Translations under genes and position numbers: made by a program
Part shown: one piece after another, positions 3,357-14,897 of the stretch
Layout: each line of letters starts with the position of its first letter
Position numbering within the stretch: position 1 is the first letter of the stretch
Source: a virus
Virus record (IMG/VR): IMGVR_UViG_3300010885_073138
Location: 1 to 27,564 of that record
Reading direction: 5' to 3' (one strand)
DNA: 27,564 nucleotides
Notes under the pieces: generated by a model
The model's database searches: none
Seen by the model: the letters and a program-made list of their open reading frames with translations, nothing else
Told to the model about the DNA's origin: nothing

Positions 3357-6300
3357 CTAGCTCAAATGCCCCTTAATTTGTGCTGCACCATTCCTCTTTG
3401 GTGGAGGTTTAGGGGGTGTCTCATACACCTGTAAACCTAAGAAACGCCGAGCACTAGCATTTAAACTATTGGCCTTGTCGCTGACGTATACAACTGTCCT
3501 TTTAGTTGTATCTGCTACAGCGTCAATTGCTCTATCTGCTGAAGATTTGTAAACAGGTGGAGCTTTAGGTGGTACTGGTTTTGGCGTAGGTGCTGCAGGC
3601 GGTTTTGCAAGTTTACCCGCTATGTTTATTTCAACGTGCGGTGGATCGTATGAAGTAGCACCACTTCTATTATGAGCTCGACCGCCGAGCAATCCGTATT
3701 TTTGTAAAATTCCTAATCTGTTCATAATAGCAACATCAGGTGAATTTATATCCATAGCTTGACCGACCTCATGCCTAGAAGTACCCGGTAGTGCTTTAGG
3801 ATTACTGCCTGAGTCAATTCTTGCTTGATCACCCGGATATCTAAATCCAGAAGTCATTGTTACTATATGACCTGTTCTTGCTTTATACTCAGTAAAAGCC
3901 GCAACTAGTCTTTTTTCAAATTCGGGATGAAGGTTTGCAAGATTTCTAGCATGTCCTGTTATACCGCCATTCAATCTTAAAAGTTTACCAACGCTGTTTT
4001 TAAGCATGCCGAATGTGTTTGATATACCTGCGCCAACATCATAAGCTGTATCTGCAATATTTGAACCAAAGTTCCCTGCAGCATTACTGAATGCTGTGAA
4101 TCCAGATACAACTTTGCTAGGACCTAGTCCAATTTGTTTTCGCTTTCTACTAACCTGTTCAGTAAGATCGGAGATAGTAATTCCTCCGCTTTGATCAACA
4201 TCAAGACCTTTGTTTTGCTTATACCAAGAGCCACTTGGATTTTTTGGTGTTCCGCCTGGTGCAGCAATAACATAACTGGGCGGTTTTTTAACAAATGCTG
4301 GAAGGAACACAGAGGTATATAATTGCCCTGCCGATGCACCTCTAGGTAATCCAACATTATTAAAATATTTTTCAACAAGCGGCATTTGTTGTGCTCTAGA
4401 CATACCCCGAATTGCTTCTGTAGTAGTGCCTAGATTTTTTGCCGTTGCTGGCATAAACTGAATAAGACCTGAGGCGCCGCCACTCTTATTGTGCGCTGCT
4501 GGATTTATGTTAGACTCAGATTGCATCATACCTAGCAAATCATTGGCATCAATATTAAACTTCTGAGATACTCTATTTACTTCTGAAATAAACGGACCAT
4601 CTTTTACCCAGTCGCCTTTAGCACCACCAAGACTTGCTTCACCATATGATCCTGTCCCGACTCCGAAACTACTAGCTAAAGATTCTGAACCTGCTGCAAT
4701 ACCTTGACGAACTAGTTCTGCTACTCTATCAGGAATGTGCGAAACATAAGTGCTTACGTTTTGAAATGTTCCTCCAAGCCATCCTGAAAGTTTAGAACCA
4801 AATCCACCAAGCATTGGTTTACCTGATAGAATGTCCTGACGCTGCTTTTCTGCTTTATCTGTTTTATCTTTAACACCAACTGCCTGTGTTGTTGTTTTTA
4901 AGGTTTGTTGCTTTACAGAAGCACTTTCTCCACTACGTGGCGAAGCTCCCGGCATTTTGACGGCATCAGATCCTGCAGCCGGTGCGCCGGTCGCACTTGC
5001 ACCTTTTGGTGTGCTGCGTCGCTTGGCAGATCCATCAGGGTTGTGTGTTTCAACATATTGGCGCGCTCTTTCTGCGGATCCCCCTCTGTTGTTTGCGCCA
5101 TATCCATCTACTACATTTTTATAATATTCAGGAAGGTTTTCCCTACCACCCACATTCTTACCATTGATAACAAAGCCTTCAAAATTATTACCTGTGATGC
5201 CAAATTGAGAAATTCCGCTGTCTTGTTTGTTTCTTGCATCTACATTTGTATTTTTTATAAATTTGTCAGTGCCGTATAAAATTGCTCCGGTGGCTGCTGC
5301 AGCAGCCACAGCCGGGGCTGCAAACCTAGCAAACCTAGCTAATCTACCTGCTCCCTTTCCTTTCTTCCCGAAATCTAACAAATCTGTTAGATCAAAACCG
5401 GAGCTGCCATTAGAGCCTTGAAGGGCGCCGCCATTAATCAATTCAGTAAGTGTGTTTAATTGCTCTGTAACGTCAGGCAATGCATTTGCTAAATATTCGC
5501 TTGAACTATCGCCACCACCTGATGTAATAGGTGAAGGTGTGATATCTTTTTCTAAAGCATTTTCTTTAGCAACATCTGTAGCAGCATCTGATTGTGCTTT
5601 AAAGATAGCATTGATATTTTTAGAATAAACATCCATGCCATTAAATGCTGTTATCAAATCAGTGAATGAATTTGATAATACAGAAATGCTGGGCTTATCT
5701 AATGATTTAGAACCTTTGGGTTCTTTTTTTGTTTTAGCAGCCTCAGTTTCTTTTTCAGCAGTTTTATCTTCTGCTGCTTTTTCTCTTTTTTCTTTTTCTT
5801 CATCTAATGTTTGTTGTAAATCAATACCAAAGGTTGCAAGCGCGCCAGAAGCTAGGCCTTTGCCTATTCCTCTTACAAGTTGTTTTCTTTTCTCTATTTT
5901 ATATTGTTGCGTTGCTAGAATATCATATGCAGCAACCTTTGCGGGATTGATATACTTTCCTGTCTTAGCATCACGATATTTTTTTGCGCCACTTTCAGTT
6001 TCCTCAACTGTATAATAAGTATCAACAATTTCTTGATACCTTGCTTTTGCTTCTTCTTTCTTTTCTTTTTCTTCATCTAATGTTTGTTGTAAATCAATAC
6101 CAAATATAGCAGCACCGCCTGATGCTAATGCTTTGCCTGCACCTTTACCAAACGCTTTTAGTTTAGATCCTGCAGGAGGAACTTCTAGAGGCTCAGGTTC
6201 TTCTTTTGGGAGTTTAGGCTTTGGTTTTGCTTTTGGTGCCGCCTTTGGTTTTGTTGGCTTTGAAGTATCTTGAGCACCATTTACTTTTGACTTAAGACTG

Positions 6301-6581
6301 TTAAGCAGTTTAAGCATATCAGGTGCAGCAGGTTGTTTTGTCTTTGCATCAATCCAACCTATGTTTTTATCGAAAACATACTTTTCGTTAGGACCTAATG
6401 TGATTGGCTCAATTGAATTATCAACATCAACCTTTAATCTCGCCTTGACGGGTTTAAGGTCTAAGCTGTCAAGTAAACGAAGCAAACCTTTATCAGCAGG
6501 TTGCTTGGTTTTCTTATCAATCCATCCTTTCTTAGGATCTTTGATAAATGATTGTTCGCCGATGCTTACTGATTCTGACAT
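3357..6581 (-). CDS. Large tail protein with lytic transglycosylase and M15 peptidase domains
   Basis: This 1074-residue protein appears to be a tail-tip lysin. The N-terminal half is low-complexity and repetitive: a GWID.KTKQPA motif at 19-40 and again at 75-96, a Lys/Pro stretch at about 105-135, and a FGIDLQQTLDEEKEK block at 160-177 and 251-268. A hydrophobic Ala-rich segment lies at 421-437. An SLT-type transglycosylase domain follows at about 663-760 (catalytic Glu689 in QSESNINP, then GLIQFMPATA). An EF-hand-like loop sits at 794-805. An M15/VanY-like peptidase spans about 880-990, with metal ligands H937 and D944 (RHEVGQAMD) and H982 (PPHVEI). The C-terminus is Pro-rich. It starts three bases after the 589-aa gene. 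It probably cuts both glycan and peptide bonds during DNA entry, replacing the lysozyme missing from gp5. Domain calls are firm; placement in the virion is inferred. Confidence 0.85.
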   Translation of the reverse strand: MSESVSIGEQSFIKDPKKGWIDKKTKQPADKGLLRLLDSLDLKPVKARLKVDVDNSIEPITLGPNEKYVFDKNIGWIDAKTKQPAAPDMLKLLNSLKSKVNGAQDTSKPTKPKAAPKAKPKPKLPKEEPEPLEVPPAGSKLKAFGKGAGKALASGGAAIFGIDLQQTLDEEKEKKEEAKARYQEIVDTYYTVEETESGAKKYRDAKTGKYINPAKVAAYDILATQQYKIEKRKQLVRGIGKGLASGALATFGIDLQQTLDEEKEKREKAAEDKTAEKETEAAKTKKEPKGSKSLDKPSISVLSNSFTDLITAFNGMDVYSKNINAIFKAQSDAATDVAKENALEKDITPSPITSGGGDSSSEYLANALPDVTEQLNTLTELINGGALQGSNGSSGFDLTDLLDFGKKGKGAGRLARFARFAAPAVAAAAATGAILYGTDKFIKNTNVDARNKQDSGISQFGITGNNFEGFVINGKNVGGRENLPEYYKNVVDGYGANNRGGSAERARQYVETHNPDGSAKRRSTPKGASATGAPAAGSDAVKMPGASPRSGESASVKQQTLKTTTQAVGVKDKTDKAEKQRQDILSGKPMLGGFGSKLSGWLGGTFQNVSTYVSHIPDRVAELVRQGIAAGSESLASSFGVGTGSYGEASLGGAKGDWVKDGPFISEVNRVSQKFNIDANDLLGMMQSESNINPAAHNKSGGASGLIQFMPATAKNLGTTTEAIRGMSRAQQMPLVEKYFNNVGLPRGASAGQLYTSVFLPAFVKKPPSYVIAAPGGTPKNPSGSWYKQNKGLDVDQSGGITISDLTEQVSRKRKQIGLGPSKVVSGFTAFSNAAGNFGSNIADTAYDVGAGISNTFGMLKNSVGKLLRLNGGITGHARNLANLHPEFEKRLVAAFTEYKARTGHIVTMTSGFRYPGDQARIDSGSNPKALPGTSRHEVGQAMDINSPDVAIMNRLGILQKYGLLGGRAHNRSGATSYDPPHVEINIAGKLAKPPAAPTPKPVPPKAPPVYKSSADRAIDAVADTTKRTVVYVSDKANSLNASARRFLGLQVYETPPKPPPKRNGAAQIKGHLS
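5788..5831 (-). repeat. 44-bp exact direct repeat, copy 1, inside the 1074-aa gene
   Basis: This stretch is identical to 6061-6104. The offset is 273 bp, or 91 codons, so the reading frame is kept. It encodes the second FGIDLQQTLDEEKEK block. Similarity continues more weakly into the preceding GKGLASG segment, pointing to an internal duplication of a helical unit. Confidence 0.9.
6061..6104 (-). repeat. 44-bp exact direct repeat, copy 2, inside the 1074-aa gene
   Basis: This is the partner of 5788-5831 and encodes the first FGIDLQQTLDEEKEK block (residues 160-177). Perfect identity over 44 bases, while the flanks have diverged, suggests recent copying or gene conversion. Confidence 0.9.
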
Positions 6582-6584
6582 ATA

Positions 6585-8354
6585 TTATCCAAGGAACAAC
6601 AACTGAGAGATAAATGCATCATCGCCATTATAATTAGGATCGGGAACATTACCTTGCCCCCTATACCCTGCGCGTGAAGTCGGCATGTTTGAACGTTCAT
6701 TAACTCGAGCTGGCATCGAACCATCATTAATATTAGGTTGTGGTGGTATTGCATTGGCTGTAGCTGTTTCGAGTGCATTACCTGATGTGGCAGCCGGCTC
6801 TATCGGTTTTGCCATAGCGGTTTGTTGTTTTTCTGGCTGCACAGGCAAACTTGGCGCTGGCTTAGATTCAGTGCTGCTTGATCCCGTGATACCACCTGTC
6901 CCGCCTGCCATAGTGACTGGTGCAGCATCTGGTGCAGACGAACCACCATTTGTCGTTGCACCAGATGCTGCACCTGATCCGGCAGGCGCAGGTGCAGATT
7001 CAGGATTTGCAGCTTTAGGAACAGCCGGTGCTGAACCAGACGCGGGTGAAGCTGAAACTGCAGGAACTGATTGTTGTGGTATTTCATTTTTCTTACCTGT
7101 AGCAGATCCTTTTTTCACAACTTGCGGCGCCATAACTTCACCAGCAACTTCTTTTACACCTGACATAACTTCAGGAAAACGAGAATTAAATTCAGGATCA
7201 GCTTCTGGCTGAACACCATAAACACCTTGATAGATATCTCTGGCGATTGATGCAATAAGAGCAGGCACTGCTGTAAATGGACCTGCTAACCCTGATGCTG
7301 CTTCAATGCCGGCGCCAACCCAATCGCCCTGCAATAACCTTCCAATAGCAAATAATCCGCCCACGGCTGCACCCGCAAGAGGAATTGATTTTAGAGCTGT
7401 TTTACCCAGCCCTTTAGCAATTAGCGGTTTTGCTAATTTTTTAACAACAGACTTAACACCTTTGCCTAAACCTGTTTTACCTGCTGCAGCGGCACCGCCC
7501 GCAATTGCTCCTGTTAGTGCCTTAACACCTTTACTGCCTGATACGGCGCCAAGACCTCTACGAAGCATTCCTGGTTGTTTAGCTAATTTTGCTGCTTCTC
7601 CTGCGTTTTTACTAACAAATCTACCCGTCTTTGCATCTCGAAGAACTGTTTGACCTGTTTTAGTAACTTCTCTAGTTATACCTGCGGCTTTGCCTGCTTT
7701 AGCAGCTTTAGCAGCTTTTGCCGCTTTACTTTTCTTTCCGCCATCAAGCATGTCTAATAAACTACCGCCGCCGCCAGCGCTGTTTTGAATAGCTTCTGTG
7801 AGTGCGGTTAGTGCGGCAGCAAATCCATCAATCGCGCTGCTTACAGGACCAATATCAGATCCTGAACCTGTAGGTGCTTCAGGAATAGCATCTTGAGCTT
7901 TTTCAAGTTTAGCTTCTTTATCTACTCGAACTGCTTGGGCATTTTGGTTGACAAATTGTTCTTGTTGTGCTTTAAGATTATCGCTAATCCGCCCAGCAAT
8001 TGCAACGAGTTGATCTACTTGATCGATCAAAGATGCAAGTGTTGGATTAGAAACTTTAGCAGCAGTTTCGGGTGTATCTAATCCCGGTAACGTTGCACCG
8101 CCGCCGGGACCACCACCTGCACCTCCTGTTGCTGCACTTGCTGCTTTTTTTTCTGCTTCCTGTTTTCTTATTTCAGCAAGATCACCCCCGCCGAGCATAC
8201 CAACAAGTCCCGATAGTATAGATTCACCAGCAGCTTTAGCAAATCCTGACTTACCTAAACGTTTAGCACCTCGTCCTACAGCACGCTTGGTTACTCTAGC
8301 GCGCTTTGTTGCACGTTTTAATAGTTTACCGATGCCTCCACGCCGTCCTGCCAC
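6585..8354 (-). CDS. Tape-measure-like tail protein
   Basis: This 589-residue protein has a very basic N-terminus (1-37, many Arg/Lys), a Gly/Ala-rich segment, a helical region (about 105-200), an AAK repeat tract (about 207-222), an RDAKTGRFVS motif shared with the 1074-aa neighbour, and a hydrophobic SIPLAGAAVGGLFAIGRLLQ-type segment at about 323-372. The C-terminus is long and rich in Ala, Pro and Ser. It starts with GTG at 8354, three bases after the TAG that follows the gp51-like stop. The length matches T4 gp29 (590 aa), and it sits directly after the gp26/gp51 chaperone-like genes, where tape measures normally lie. I see no clear residue match to gp29, so the tape-measure role is inferred from context, length and composition. 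The neighbouring 1074-aa protein is the alternative candidate. Confidence 0.6.
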   Translation of the reverse strand: MAGRRGGIGKLLKRATKRARVTKRAVGRGAKRLGKSGFAKAAGESILSGLVGMLGGGDLAEIRKQEAEKKAASAATGGAGGGPGGGATLPGLDTPETAAKVSNPTLASLIDQVDQLVAIAGRISDNLKAQQEQFVNQNAQAVRVDKEAKLEKAQDAIPEAPTGSGSDIGPVSSAIDGFAAALTALTEAIQNSAGGGGSLLDMLDGGKKSKAAKAAKAAKAGKAAGITREVTKTGQTVLRDAKTGRFVSKNAGEAAKLAKQPGMLRRGLGAVSGSKGVKALTGAIAGGAAAAGKTGLGKGVKSVVKKLAKPLIAKGLGKTALKSIPLAGAAVGGLFAIGRLLQGDWVGAGIEAASGLAGPFTAVPALIASIARDIYQGVYGVQPEADPEFNSRFPEVMSGVKEVAGEVMAPQVVKKGSATGKKNEIPQQSVPAVSASPASGSAPAVPKAANPESAPAPAGSGAASGATTNGGSSAPDAAPVTMAGGTGGITGSSSTESKPAPSLPVQPEKQQTAMAKPIEPAATSGNALETATANAIPPQPNINDGSMPARVNERSNMPTSRAGYRGQGNVPDPNYNGDDAFISQLLFLG

Positions 8355-8357
8355 CTA

Positions 8358-8546
8358 TTATTGCCTTTGTTCTAATTCTTGTTTTTGTTTTTCTAAGAAT
8401 GCTAATAACAAATCAATATAGATGTCTCGCTCAAAAGGCATCAGGTCTTCAATTTCACTTATCGAATATTTATGATGTTGGGCTAACGAAAATATAGTCG
8501 TGTAATAGTTAGATAGACTATTGTGACTTAGCCCCAGGTAAAAAAA
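8358..8546 (-). CDS. gp51-position extension of gp26, made by -1 frameshift
   Basis: This -1-frame ORF has no start of its own. The nearest upstream stop in its frame (a TGA in gp26) is followed by GAA CCT CAG AGA TTT TTT TAC and no usable initiator; the first in-frame ATG would leave only 27 codons. From the T7 slippery site at 8546-8540 it continues for 60 codons past the end of the zero frame (YLGLSHNSLSNYYTTIFSLA, then QHHKYSISEIEDLMPFERD and a Lys/Gln/Glu-rich tail), stopping at 8360-8358. The HHKYSISEIE..MPFERDIY segment resembles the short gp51 proteins of cyanophage-like T4 relatives, as I recall them. A slip after FF would give a product of about 294 residues. This resembles the G/GT tail chaperones of lambda-type phages. 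A base-count error in the T run would instead make one continuous gene. Confidence 0.7.
   Translation of the reverse strand, partial: FFYLGLSHNSLSNYYTTIFSLAQHHKYSISEIEDLMPFERDIYIDLLLAFLEKQKQELEQRQ
8479..8546 (-). promoter_or_regulatory. Programmed -1 frameshift signal: U7 slippery site plus nested stem-loop
   Basis: On the minus strand the zero frame reads GAT TTT TTT ACC, so T TTT TTT (8546-8540) is a proper X XXY YYZ heptamer. After a 5-nt spacer (8539-8535) an outer 7-bp stem pairs 8534-8528 (GGGCTAA) with 8485-8479 (TTAGCCC). Inside it a 6-bp stem pairs 8520-8515 (ATAGTC) with 8498-8493 (GACTAT). The zero-frame stop TAA is within the outer stem. Spacer length and geometry are those expected of a stimulatory structure. 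Confidence 0.7.
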
Positions 8547-9241
8547 TCTCTGAGGTTCTCAAGTTCAATCGTTCTTACATGATCAAGTGAATTTGTATAT
8601 TCCAACTTATGATAAAGTTTCGGTAGATTGTCTAAGAAAGCACGAACCTTATTGAAAGATTCAATATCAATGCTGTCTAGGAACTCAGTGACTTCTTCTT
8701 CAGGTTGATCCTCAATAGGATACACTGTTTCTTCATCATAAATGCTTTCGATGCAACTACGAATTAAATAGTCAACAATGTCAGTTGACGTTGCATTTTC
8801 TGGAATGTTATCTAAGATAGTCACTGAAGGATATTTCATGATAATACCAACAGTGTCAGACACAGTGATCTTATTTGAAATTTCTGTTTCAGGATACTTG
8901 ACTTCGATTGTGTCTAGGTCGATCTCAAAATCATAGACCTTATCATCTTCAACGTCACGATAAGAAACCTCGATGATATTATTCACTGACTTAGCACGTA
9001 GTTTTAAGAACATATACTCAAGATCAAATGTGGTCAACTTGTCAACATCAAATGTTTGATCAAGAACACAATTCATTAGTACCTGCTTAATAGCGTAGAT
9101 TATATCTCTTTCAGTTTCACCTTGCTGTGCGACAAGTAAAATCTTTTCTTCTTTAACTAGAAACGGACGAAACCTCACTGCTTTCTTTTGTGAAGGGATG
9201 GTCATTTCAAATGTTGGTTTGTCGAGTTTAGGTAGTGACAT
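8528..9241 (-). CDS. Baseplate hub assembly protein gp26 (T4_baseplate family)
   Basis: This 237-residue protein starts MSLPKLDKPTFEMTIPSQKK and contains FRPFLVKEEKILLVAQQGE (about 23-42), a pattern typical of the gp26-type T4 baseplate family. It is slightly longer than T4 gp26 (208 aa). In T4, gp26 and gp51 are needed for hub assembly and are not prominent in the finished particle, which fits a chaperone for the tape measure. The ribosome binding site is AGGAA six bases before the ATG. The C-terminus (RDFFTWG) ends right after the slippery T7, so the zero-frame product is released three codons past the slip site while a fraction of ribosomes should continue into the gp51-like frame. Neighbours are the gp54-like gene upstream and the tape-measure-like gene downstream. 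Confidence 0.88.
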   Translation of the reverse strand: MSLPKLDKPTFEMTIPSQKKAVRFRPFLVKEEKILLVAQQGETERDIIYAIKQVLMNCVLDQTFDVDKLTTFDLEYMFLKLRAKSVNNIIEVSYRDVEDDKVYDFEIDLDTIEVKYPETEISNKITVSDTVGIIMKYPSVTILDNIPENATSTDIVDYLIRSCIESIYDEETVYPIEDQPEEEVTEFLDSIDIESFNKVRAFLDNLPKLYHKLEYTNSLDHVRTIELENLRDFFTWG

Positions 9242-9262: not shown

Positions 9263-9988
9263 TTATGTTTCAATGATGCCGGATTGTAATAATTGGTTAT
9301 TTACGATAGTTTGCGGATTGATAATTTGACCTGTTGCATTTCTACTAATAGTTGGTAATTGTCCAGGAACAACTTTAGGTGGTTGTGCTATGGGTGCTGG
9401 TGTAGCGCCTCTAGGATTATCGTTACTAGGTTCAAAAAATTCAATATCATATGTTTTATATGAAAATGGAATTGATAGTTTAACAAGTGTTCCTTGCGCG
9501 TCCCAATTCAAATCAATTGCTGAAATAGATTTAGGATAAGCCCTTCTCATAGTCATTTTTTGAATTGGTTTCTGTGAAGAATCATACAAAGTAACAAAGA
9601 TTTCTGTCATGAAGTTTTGACGATAGCCTACTTCATATCCTCTTTCACCGTTAGAGGTGTTGTAGTTAACAATACAATTCATCCACCGATAGAAGTATTG
9701 ATATATTTCTGATTTACGATCTACAAGGAAACCTAAAGTGATATCATCAAATGTAACACCATAAGGTTGCTGTTCATTTGGACCAACACCTAGGCGCGGA
9801 GGACCTTCAGCACTTGCTAAGGTTACTCCTGGCATTGATGCGCTTTCGCAACGAACTGTTAAACTAGCAGGAGATGTTTTTGTAGAACTCATACACTCAG
9901 GTTTTCTAAAAACTGCATCAAAGCTGTGGGTGTGTAGCACACCTCTTTTGTTTATGTCTGTAGTAAATTCGCTGATCTTAAATGCCAT
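9263..9988 (-). CDS. gp54/gp19-like tail tube initiator protein
   Basis: This 241-residue protein has the layout of the T4 tube fold shared by gp19, gp48 and gp54: an N-terminal F.AVF strand, a VRCESASMPGVTLAS segment (about 45-59), FDDITLGFLVDRKSEIYQYF.RW (about 79-101), YEVGYRQNFMTEIFVTLYD, then AYPKSISAIDLNWDAQG and a final IPFSYKTYDIEFFEP, followed by a Pro/Asn-rich tail. It is shorter than T4 gp54 (320 aa). gp54 sits on the baseplate hub with gp48 and nucleates the tube. The start abuts the stop of the 199-aa gene (TAA then ATG). It could instead be a second tube protein, but its company of baseplate genes favours gp54. gp48 is encoded on the other strand. Confidence 0.65.
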   Translation of the reverse strand: MAFKISEFTTDINKRGVLHTHSFDAVFRKPECMSSTKTSPASLTVRCESASMPGVTLASAEGPPRLGVGPNEQQPYGVTFDDITLGFLVDRKSEIYQYFYRWMNCIVNYNTSNGERGYEVGYRQNFMTEIFVTLYDSSQKPIQKMTMRRAYPKSISAIDLNWDAQGTLVKLSIPFSYKTYDIEFFEPSNDNPRGATPAPIAQPPKVVPGQLPTISRNATGQIINPQTIVNNQLLQSGIIET

Positions 9989-12639: not shown

Positions 12640-13512
12640 ATGAACTATTTCGATAAACTACCAATCATTTCGTATAATAATAATCTTGCTAGAAATATTT
12701 TAGCACGAGCAAAATTCACACAGAATACGATGAAGAATCGAGCAACATATTATCCATACACCATTGAGAACGGACAGCGTGCGGATTCGCTTTCAGATGA
12801 TTATTACAATAATCCTGGATACGAGTGGTTGATTTATTTTGCTAATGATATCGTAGACCCTTACTATGATCTCCCCATGACTGAAGATAACTTTTATAAT
12901 CATGTTGTTAGTAAGTATGGCACCTATGAAATAGCAATGCGGAAAATTTTATACTATAGACATGATTGGGCAAATGCTATAGAAGAACGTATAACTGTTG
13001 CAGAATTCGATGCTTTGAGTTTTGCCTATAAAAAGTATTATGATCCTGTCCTCGACTACAATCTACAACCAGCAAGTTATAAAAGAAACACTGAAGATTG
13101 GGTTGCTTCGACAAATAAAATTATCACTTTGACGCTAACTGGCGTCACAGGAACATTCTTATATGATGAAGAAGTGCAAGTTAATAGCAGTAATTACGGC
13201 ACCGTCACTTATGTTGATACCGGTGTTGTTTACCTACAACACATCGTGGGGACATTTACCGCAGGTGCAACAGTTACTGGTGTAACGTCAGGTGCCACTG
13301 CGACTATTGCCGCCGATGGTGTGGCAACATCAGTGAACATACAAGATGGTACTGTTGCAGGAAAGCCTGATGAAAGAGCTTTCTGGGCACCAGTCACTGC
13401 GTTTCAACATGAAGAAGAAGAGAATGCCAAGAAGAAAGAAATCCGATTGATGGACGTTCGCTATAAATCAACAGCAGACGATATGCTTAGGCAGGTTCTA
13501 AAAAGCAAATGA
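12640..13512 (+). CDS. Baseplate wedge protein gp53 with an inserted domain
   Basis: The first 150 residues are gp53-like: MNYFDKLPIISYNNNLARNI, then ATYYPYTIENGQRADSLSDD, NNPGYEWLIYFAND and an aromatic-rich stretch to DHDW-like residues near 115. gp53 links wedges to each other and to the hub. At 290 residues it is much longer than T4 gp53 (196 aa). The extra part is a beta-rich block at about 159-227 (TLTLTGVTGTFLYDEEVQVN, then GTFTAGATVTGVTSGATATI), which looks like a small phage decoration module. The C-terminus (EEEENAKKKEIRLMDVRYKS) returns to a wedge-like sequence. The stop overlaps the gp27 start by four bases (ATGA). Confidence 0.87.
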   Translation: MNYFDKLPIISYNNNLARNILARAKFTQNTMKNRATYYPYTIENGQRADSLSDDYYNNPGYEWLIYFANDIVDPYYDLPMTEDNFYNHVVSKYGTYEIAMRKILYYRHDWANAIEERITVAEFDALSFAYKKYYDPVLDYNLQPASYKRNTEDWVASTNKIITLTLTGVTGTFLYDEEVQVNSSNYGTVTYVDTGVVYLQHIVGTFTAGATVTGVTSGATATIAADGVATSVNIQDGTVAGKPDERAFWAPVTAFQHEEEENAKKKEIRLMDVRYKSTADDMLRQVLKSK

Positions 13513-14897
13513 AATTAAATTCTATTCTTAAGTCAATTGAAAAAGCTATTCTCAACGGAATTGAGGATGGCTTTAAGTTTGCGTCAAAATCTGGAAACTC
13601 AGATCAATTCATTGCAGGTGATGTTGATATCATTGATATCACTGTTATGAGTGAAGATCAACAGCGTCGCTATAGTTTGATGACTATGTGTAAAGCTATT
13701 ATGGTTTATGAAAGCATTTTATCACCAGCAATTTTTGCAGAGCTTAAGATTGTTGATCCTAATGGTATTCGCCAGGATTTTCCAATTATTGCAGAAGAGT
13801 ATATTGTCATTACTTTTAAAACGCCAGGTTCTGCTGAACCCGCTAAGTATTTCCTTAGAATTAATGCAGTTGGTGATTCGGATATTAAGCAAGGTAATAA
13901 AACTCAAACATATACGCTGCAATGCTGCAGCGTTGAAATATTAACTAACGCTAAAACACCAGTAAATAAAACATTTAATGCAACTGCAGATCAATGCGTC
14001 GATGAGTTGTTGACTGATAAAGCATACCTTGGCACACAAAAACCTTTTATTAAAGAATCATGTAAAGGTGTCTTTGAAGGTATTTGTCCTGGAAATGCCA
14101 ATCTCAAAGGAACGTCTGGATCACCTACACCTTTTGTTGCAATTGATTATCTCAGAAGATATAAATCTTTCTCTACAAAATATATTTCACACTCATTTGT
14201 TTTTTTTGAAAATAGACACGGATTTAATTTTGTTACAATTGAAAAAATGATGGAAGATGGCGCAAAAGCAATGGCTGCTGGTGCGTCTGATAAACAATTT
14301 TATTTTGACTCTAATAGTAAATTAGATGCTAGAAATATTACTGTAAGAGATATCATTGCATACAACCAAGCAACCTTTGCTTCTGCAGTGTCAAAAGTTG
14401 AAAGCGGCGCACAATATAAAATTGTAAACCAGGTTGACTTATTAACAATGAATACTATACAATATAATTATACCGATAATGAAGGTTCATCAAAGTTTAA
14501 TGTAGCAGATGGTGCCTCAGCTGCGGGAACGTCAAGCACGTCTTTTCAAAATGAACACGGAAAAACTACAGCAGAATCTGTGGCTAGGTTCAGTTGTCTA
14601 GTTCCACACAAACAAGATAATTATGCCGAAAAACTTAGCGTCATATCTAGTTATGCAGAAAAACTCGCACAAAATATAACATATATTCACATCTATGGCG
14701 ATACAGAAATTACTGTCGGTGATATGATCAAGTGTACTTTACCTTCAGCAAAAGATACGGATGATAATACAGGTAAGTCTCGACTAGACAGCGGTAATTA
14801 TTTAGTATCAAAACTATGCCATATTATTTTAAATACCGATAGACCACAACATACAATTGCGCTTGAATTGATCAAGGGCGGATTTACAGAGAATTAA
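13509..14897 (+). CDS. Baseplate hub protein gp27
   Basis: This 462-residue protein occupies the gp27 position directly before gp5. Its sequence fits the hub fold: DVDIIDITVMSEDQQRRYSL near the N-terminus, a beta-rich domain with YESILSPAIFAELKIVDPNG and FRINAVGD-type strands, the FVAIDYLRRYKSF segment in the middle, and a C-terminal domain with ITVGDMIKCTLPS and NYLVSKLCHIILN. gp27 forms the trimeric ring that holds gp5 and matches the tube symmetry. T4 gp27 is 391 aa, so this one has extra loops. Four-base overlap with gp53 and a two-base gap to gp5 indicate tight coupling. No enzymatic domain is seen. Confidence 0.82.
   Translation: MKLNSILKSIEKAILNGIEDGFKFASKSGNSDQFIAGDVDIIDITVMSEDQQRRYSLMTMCKAIMVYESILSPAIFAELKIVDPNGIRQDFPIIAEEYIVITFKTPGSAEPAKYFLRINAVGDSDIKQGNKTQTYTLQCCSVEILTNAKTPVNKTFNATADQCVDELLTDKAYLGTQKPFIKESCKGVFEGICPGNANLKGTSGSPTPFVAIDYLRRYKSFSTKYISHSFVFFENRHGFNFVTIEKMMEDGAKAMAAGASDKQFYFDSNSKLDARNITVRDIIAYNQATFASAVSKVESGAQYKIVNQVDLLTMNTIQYNYTDNEGSSKFNVADGASAAGTSSTSFQNEHGKTTAESVARFSCLVPHKQDNYAEKLSVISSYAEKLAQNITYIHIYGDTEITVGDMIKCTLPSAKDTDDNTGKSRLDSGNYLVSKLCHIILNTDRPQHTIALELIKGGFTEN

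Follow-up and report, generated by a model that had tools for sequence, protein, structure and literature searches.

Tail assembly chaperones of the lambda gpG/gpGT type, produced with a −1 frameshift, were reportedly described by Xu, Hendrix and Duda in 2004, and Vladimirov et al. (Virology 2022) are reported to have identified the tail assembly chaperones of T4-like phages, including a two-gene solution. In a 2016 review, the G/GT frameshift is considered widespread except in T4 (PMC5009743). According to two later papers, in some T4-like phages a short chaperone gene and a second, fused long one take the place of the frameshift (PMC10885494, citing Vladimirov et al. 2022), and poly-T sequences in TAC-N genes of the T4-like group already count as known −1 signals (PMC12846349, citing Vladimirov et al., Virology 2022). 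The initial annotation of the locus studied here had raised the possibility of a novelty in T4-like phages, which is not supported: the chaperones and the two-gene solution were published in 2022 and poly-T signals are called known, and the link of gp26 and gp51 to chaperones is not new, having already been proposed for T4-like proteins. The exchange of stimulators proposed below, a stem versus a GAGGG element, may be undescribed.

The locus lies in a viral DNA stretch of 27,564 nucleotides (IMGVR_UViG_3300010885_073138), called here the window. Its arrangement resembles that of lambda gpG/gpGT, with one gene for a short and a −1 extended long form, a slip close to where the short frame ends and a position in the tail block; it differs from lambda in its slip site, U UUU UUN, and in having no detectable protein sequence relation. 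In other phage families, Vandenendeviridae and Andersonviridae (phage Adele; PMC12846349), the chaperone locus has an invariant GTTTTT and is likened to the window by slip-site features; there too the short gene ends with a poly-T −1 site, and the tail is annotated as a separate gene. Pelagibacter phage HTVC008M shares the gene order and has the same T run where gp26 ends, but is annotated with two genes, and a 110-aa gene precedes its putative tape measure gene. T4 gp26 and gp51 belong to the same protein family as the short and long forms of the window; in T4 they are encoded by two paralogous genes on opposite strands, whereas the window has one gene and a −1 shift.

A slip site and an open −1 frame at the end of gene 26

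Gene 26 of the window (8528–9241, minus strand) encodes a predicted tail assembly chaperone short form of 237 aa (PF12322, E 6e-57; phrog_150, E 9e-60). On the minus strand its 3′ end reads AGA GAT (8548–8546) TTT TTT ACC TGG GGC TAA (8530–8528), and thus contains the heptamer U UUU UUU (8546–8540) in the gene 26 frame. The −1 frame reads TAC CTG GGG CTA... from 8540 and ends with TAA at 8360–8358, which gives an extension of 60 codons plus stop (8358–8540, minus strand) and a computed fusion product of 294 aa. As in G/GT-type genes, an in-frame heptamer stands near the end of the short gene and is followed by an open −1 frame. Upstream of the slip the −1 frame is closed by a TGA (8561–8559, minus strand), and no ATG, GTG or TTG is found between this stop and the slip in the window; the first start codon past the slip is an ATG at tail residue 34, within the conserved tail. 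The initial annotation had claimed the in-frame heptamer, the 60-codon −1 ORF open from the slip, the absence of an initiator ahead of it and a fusion of about 294 aa, all of which were recovered.

In-frame X XXY YYZ heptamers number 38 in the 8428 codons of the window (about 1 in 220), two of them T TTT TTN. Because such heptamers are this frequent, the slip site alone is weak evidence and by itself proves little; it is the comparison of sequences among relatives that raises it above chance.

Conservation of the slip site among relatives

The junction was compared in 175 loci, from 80 close viral contigs, 80 cyanophage-like contigs and 15 named phages. In line with the alignment that the initial annotation had suggested as a check, T TTT TTN was kept in phase near the gp26 end in 172 of the 175 loci, as T TTT TTT or T TTT TTC and once as TTTTTTG, mostly 7–16 nt ahead of the gp26 stop. 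The phages that keep it include cyanophages and phages of Caulobacter, Rhizobium, Vibrio, Delftia and Aeromonas. There were three exceptions. In L074 the heptamer is present and a stop lies upstream of it. Serratia phage 3M, an Ackermannviridae relative (L092:1501-2262), has G GTT TTC followed by an open −1 tail. L149 (L149:2001-2894, contig IMGVR_UViG_3300049043_000112) encodes an in-frame gp26–gp51 fusion devoid of the heptamer; no second gp26 copy was found in this 236-kb contig, and the fusion may be a solution with the long form only or else reflect a change in assembly. The G GTT TTC of Serratia phage 3M resembles the GTTTTT motif described in phage Adele and its relatives.

Two phages were examined separately. 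In HTVC008M, gp26 ends with AGT TTT TTT TAA, which keeps the heptamer, and the −1 frame, as judged by eye, encodes the same kind of tail. In S-CAM7, gp26 ends with TCT TTT TTC GCG TAA, like other loci.

At 85% identity, 78 loci are non-redundant; they were drawn from the heptamer-bearing loci, omitting just L074, Serratia phage 3M and L149. All 78 have TTT as the first Phe codon, preceded by a codon with T in third position whatever the amino acid it encodes (mainly Asp, Ser or Ala). The probability that such a codon pattern arises by chance, estimated from codon usage, is less than 10^-12 in each of three groups, an optimistic figure given shared ancestry. A continuous frame was looked for in the closest relatives, L002 and L003, and ruled out, both having T7 and split frames.

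The −1 tail is a selected coding sequence of the gp51 family

The tail matched phrog_634 (E 4e-24), annotated as 'baseplate hub assembly catalyst', i.e. gp51; by their profile matches (PF12322, phrog_150, phrog_634), the short form and the tail belong to the T4 gp26/gp51 family. In 67 tails of the window's clade, for the region past the overlap, the median pN/pS was 0.05 in the −1 frame versus 0.96 and 1.72 in the other phases. None of these tails has a stop in the −1 frame, which is the only stop-free phase. These comparisons indicate that the tail is under strong purifying selection, and in the −1 frame only.

T4 itself offers a comparison for the two products. A model of the fused product aligned with T4 gp26 over positions 14–237 and with T4 gp51 over 24–282 of 296, spanning the junction, and each match outscored every one of 1000 shuffled controls. 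A model of the tail alone matched T4 gp51 and not T4 gp26, and phrog_150 was matched by both T4 proteins, the genes of which, 26 and 51, lie on opposite strands. Since gp26 matches the short form and gp51 the long form, these alignments indicate that T4 encodes the two forms as two paralogues and does with two genes what others do by frameshift. The tie of gp26/gp51 to the G/GT paradigm, put forward in the initial annotation, is supported, the alignment of T4 gp51 running through the junction and that of T4 gp26 covering the short form.

Gene 51 could instead be a small gene in its own right that overlaps or adjoins gene 26 and starts translation independently. It is annotated in this way in P-SSM4, S-RIM8, DLP_6, HTVC008M and others, and many loci do have an early start codon, an ATG at tail residue 4 in the cyanophage-like loci or a start codon at residue 2 in the window's clade. 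We nevertheless regard a separate gene as improbable: 156 of 157 loci lack a start codon in the interval from the upstream stop to the slip, the first one past it scatters across loci from tail residue 2 to 45 (34 in the window), the invariant phase of the heptamer is left unexplained, and T4 gp51 is a full-length fusion. Judged from the aligned loci, the −1 extension is a selected coding sequence that has no consistent start of its own.

Candidate stimulators of frameshifting

Downstream stems and upstream Shine–Dalgarno (SD) elements are known stimulators of −1 shifting in bacteria. In the window, a predicted outer stem of 7 bp (GGGCUAA, 8528–8534, with UUAGCCC, 8480–8486, minus strand) starts 5 nt past the heptamer, the spacer that had been reported initially, and encloses a 6-bp inner stem (AUAGUC, 8516–8521, with GACUAU, 8494–8499, minus strand), which differs from the stem conserved in relatives. 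Both stems had been noticed in the initial annotation, with three of the four arm coordinates one base off; the outer 3′ arm, for instance, had been placed at 8485–8479. Folding of 8541–8470 gave −15.4 kcal/mol (z −3.5), and none of 200 shuffles was as good; the z value was only −1.8 for a longer stretch with more flank.

The window's clade has a 12-bp stem (A1 columns 11–23 with 62–74), the homologue of which lies at 8473–8536 (minus strand) in the window. It is 96% paired over 44 sequences, compared with 21–43% for slid controls, and three of its pairs are changed on both sides, a count that was unexceptional in a shuffle control (59/500). On this alignment the 12-bp stem of the clade is conserved and covarying; the window uses a shifted 7-bp register and has lost part of the register of its clade.

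Upstream of the slip, an SD-like GAGGG precedes T TTT TTC in 37 of the 43 non-redundant cyanophage-like loci (e.g. L082, L096, L098-L177); it is absent from all 24 loci compared from the window's clade. Because GAGGG falls within a conserved LEG motif, its conservation is partly amino-acid conservation, and the informative part is the use of GAG instead of the commoner GAA. GAGGG is likely to be a second kind of stimulator. A candidate stimulator of a programmed −1 signal is present in each group, the covarying stem downstream of the slip in the window's clade and GAGGG upstream of it in the cyanophage-like loci.

These elements bear on the possibility that the frames are joined during transcription, by slippage on the T run, and not by the ribosome. 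Seven consecutive T (eight in HTVC008M) could serve for this, but in most cyanophage-like loci the run is just T6 and neither the codon phase nor the T ahead of TTT varies, while the conserved downstream stem and the SD-like element upstream are features of ribosomal shifting; we consider transcriptional slippage even less probable than a separate gene 51. A sequencing error or a recent frameshift mutation splitting one gene, for which the continuous fusion of L149 might speak, is almost certainly wrong and already refuted by sequence comparison, as at least 172 loci from many phage families have the split and T7 recurs in near-identical contigs of other metagenomes: three close independent contigs (L002–L004) carry the same T7, so that it is not a sequencing error, and the different T count giving one frame that the initial annotation had envisaged was not seen in them.

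Proposed mechanism and evolution

It is very probable that the tail assembly chaperone gene of this T4-like phage contains a programmed −1 ribosomal frameshift. The −1 shift joining gp26 to a gp51-like tail, as first suggested from the window, is in agreement with the phase-locked heptamer, selection in the −1 frame only, the lack of a consistent start and the covarying stem. Most ribosomes would terminate at the gene 26 stop and release the short form, and a minority would pause at the downstream stem, where both tRNA-Phe would slip one base back on U UUU UUU; reading would go on in the −1 frame for 60 residues to yield the 294-aa gp26–gp51 fusion, the long form. If lambda gpG/gpGT is a guide, the short form would serve as a coat for the tape measure protein and the long form would use its tail to bring in tail tube subunits. 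What the sequences show is the slip site, the selected −1 frame, the conserved stem of the clade and the match of the two T4 genes to the short and long forms; from these we infer that ribosomes shift at the site, the ratio of the two products, and a chaperone role for gp26 and the fusion.

For the T4-like phages as a whole, we incline to a scenario in which the U UUU UUN frameshift, which is common, would probably be ancestral, T4 genes 26 and 51 would be a derived duplication, and stimulators would have been exchanged between lineages, with a stem-loop in the window's clade and GAGGG in the cyanophage-like phages. If gp51 is the long form of a G/GT-type chaperone, its role becomes directly testable, and the relatives would be phages in which the frameshift version is still in use. 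In hundreds of phage records gp51 is listed as a separate gene; annotation as the product of a frameshift would be preferable.

Gene neighbourhood and predicted fold

The neighbourhood of gene 26 is a T4-like tail module, with a tail-tube-like protein, a DNA end protector, a head closure protein, and baseplate cap and wedge proteins; the gene order of HTVC008M is the same. The upstream neighbour (9263–9988, minus strand) encodes the tail-tube-like protein (phrog_45, E 4e-32; PF23849, E 9e-10). The downstream neighbour (6585–8354, minus strand) encodes a 589-aa protein, a candidate tape measure by position, for which no tape-measure homology was found. The initial placement of the shift just before the tape measure gene is, for the window, a positional inference. 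Annotated tape measure genes follow the chaperone gene nearby in Cr30 and HTVC008M. The genes after the chaperone gene (3357–8354, minus strand) encode the 589-aa protein, which is Ala/Gly-rich, and a 1074-aa protein with SLT and VanY-like domains. One of these two proteins is probably the tape measure; both were also compared with the HTVC008M tape measure as possible homologues, and neither matched.

The fold of gp26 was predicted with a pLDDT of 86.5 and matched the HK97 chaperone 2ob9 weakly (E 1.6, probability 0.35). A sequence-profile search of solved structures gave no meaningful match, and in a comparison with the Pfam chaperone families one member matched Phage_TAC_12, at an E value of only 0.014. 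The predicted structure does not establish common descent with lambda-type chaperones.

The second in-frame T TTT TTT of the window lies at codon 231 of 13509–14897, midway through a tail protein gene (phrog_350), and is probably due to chance.
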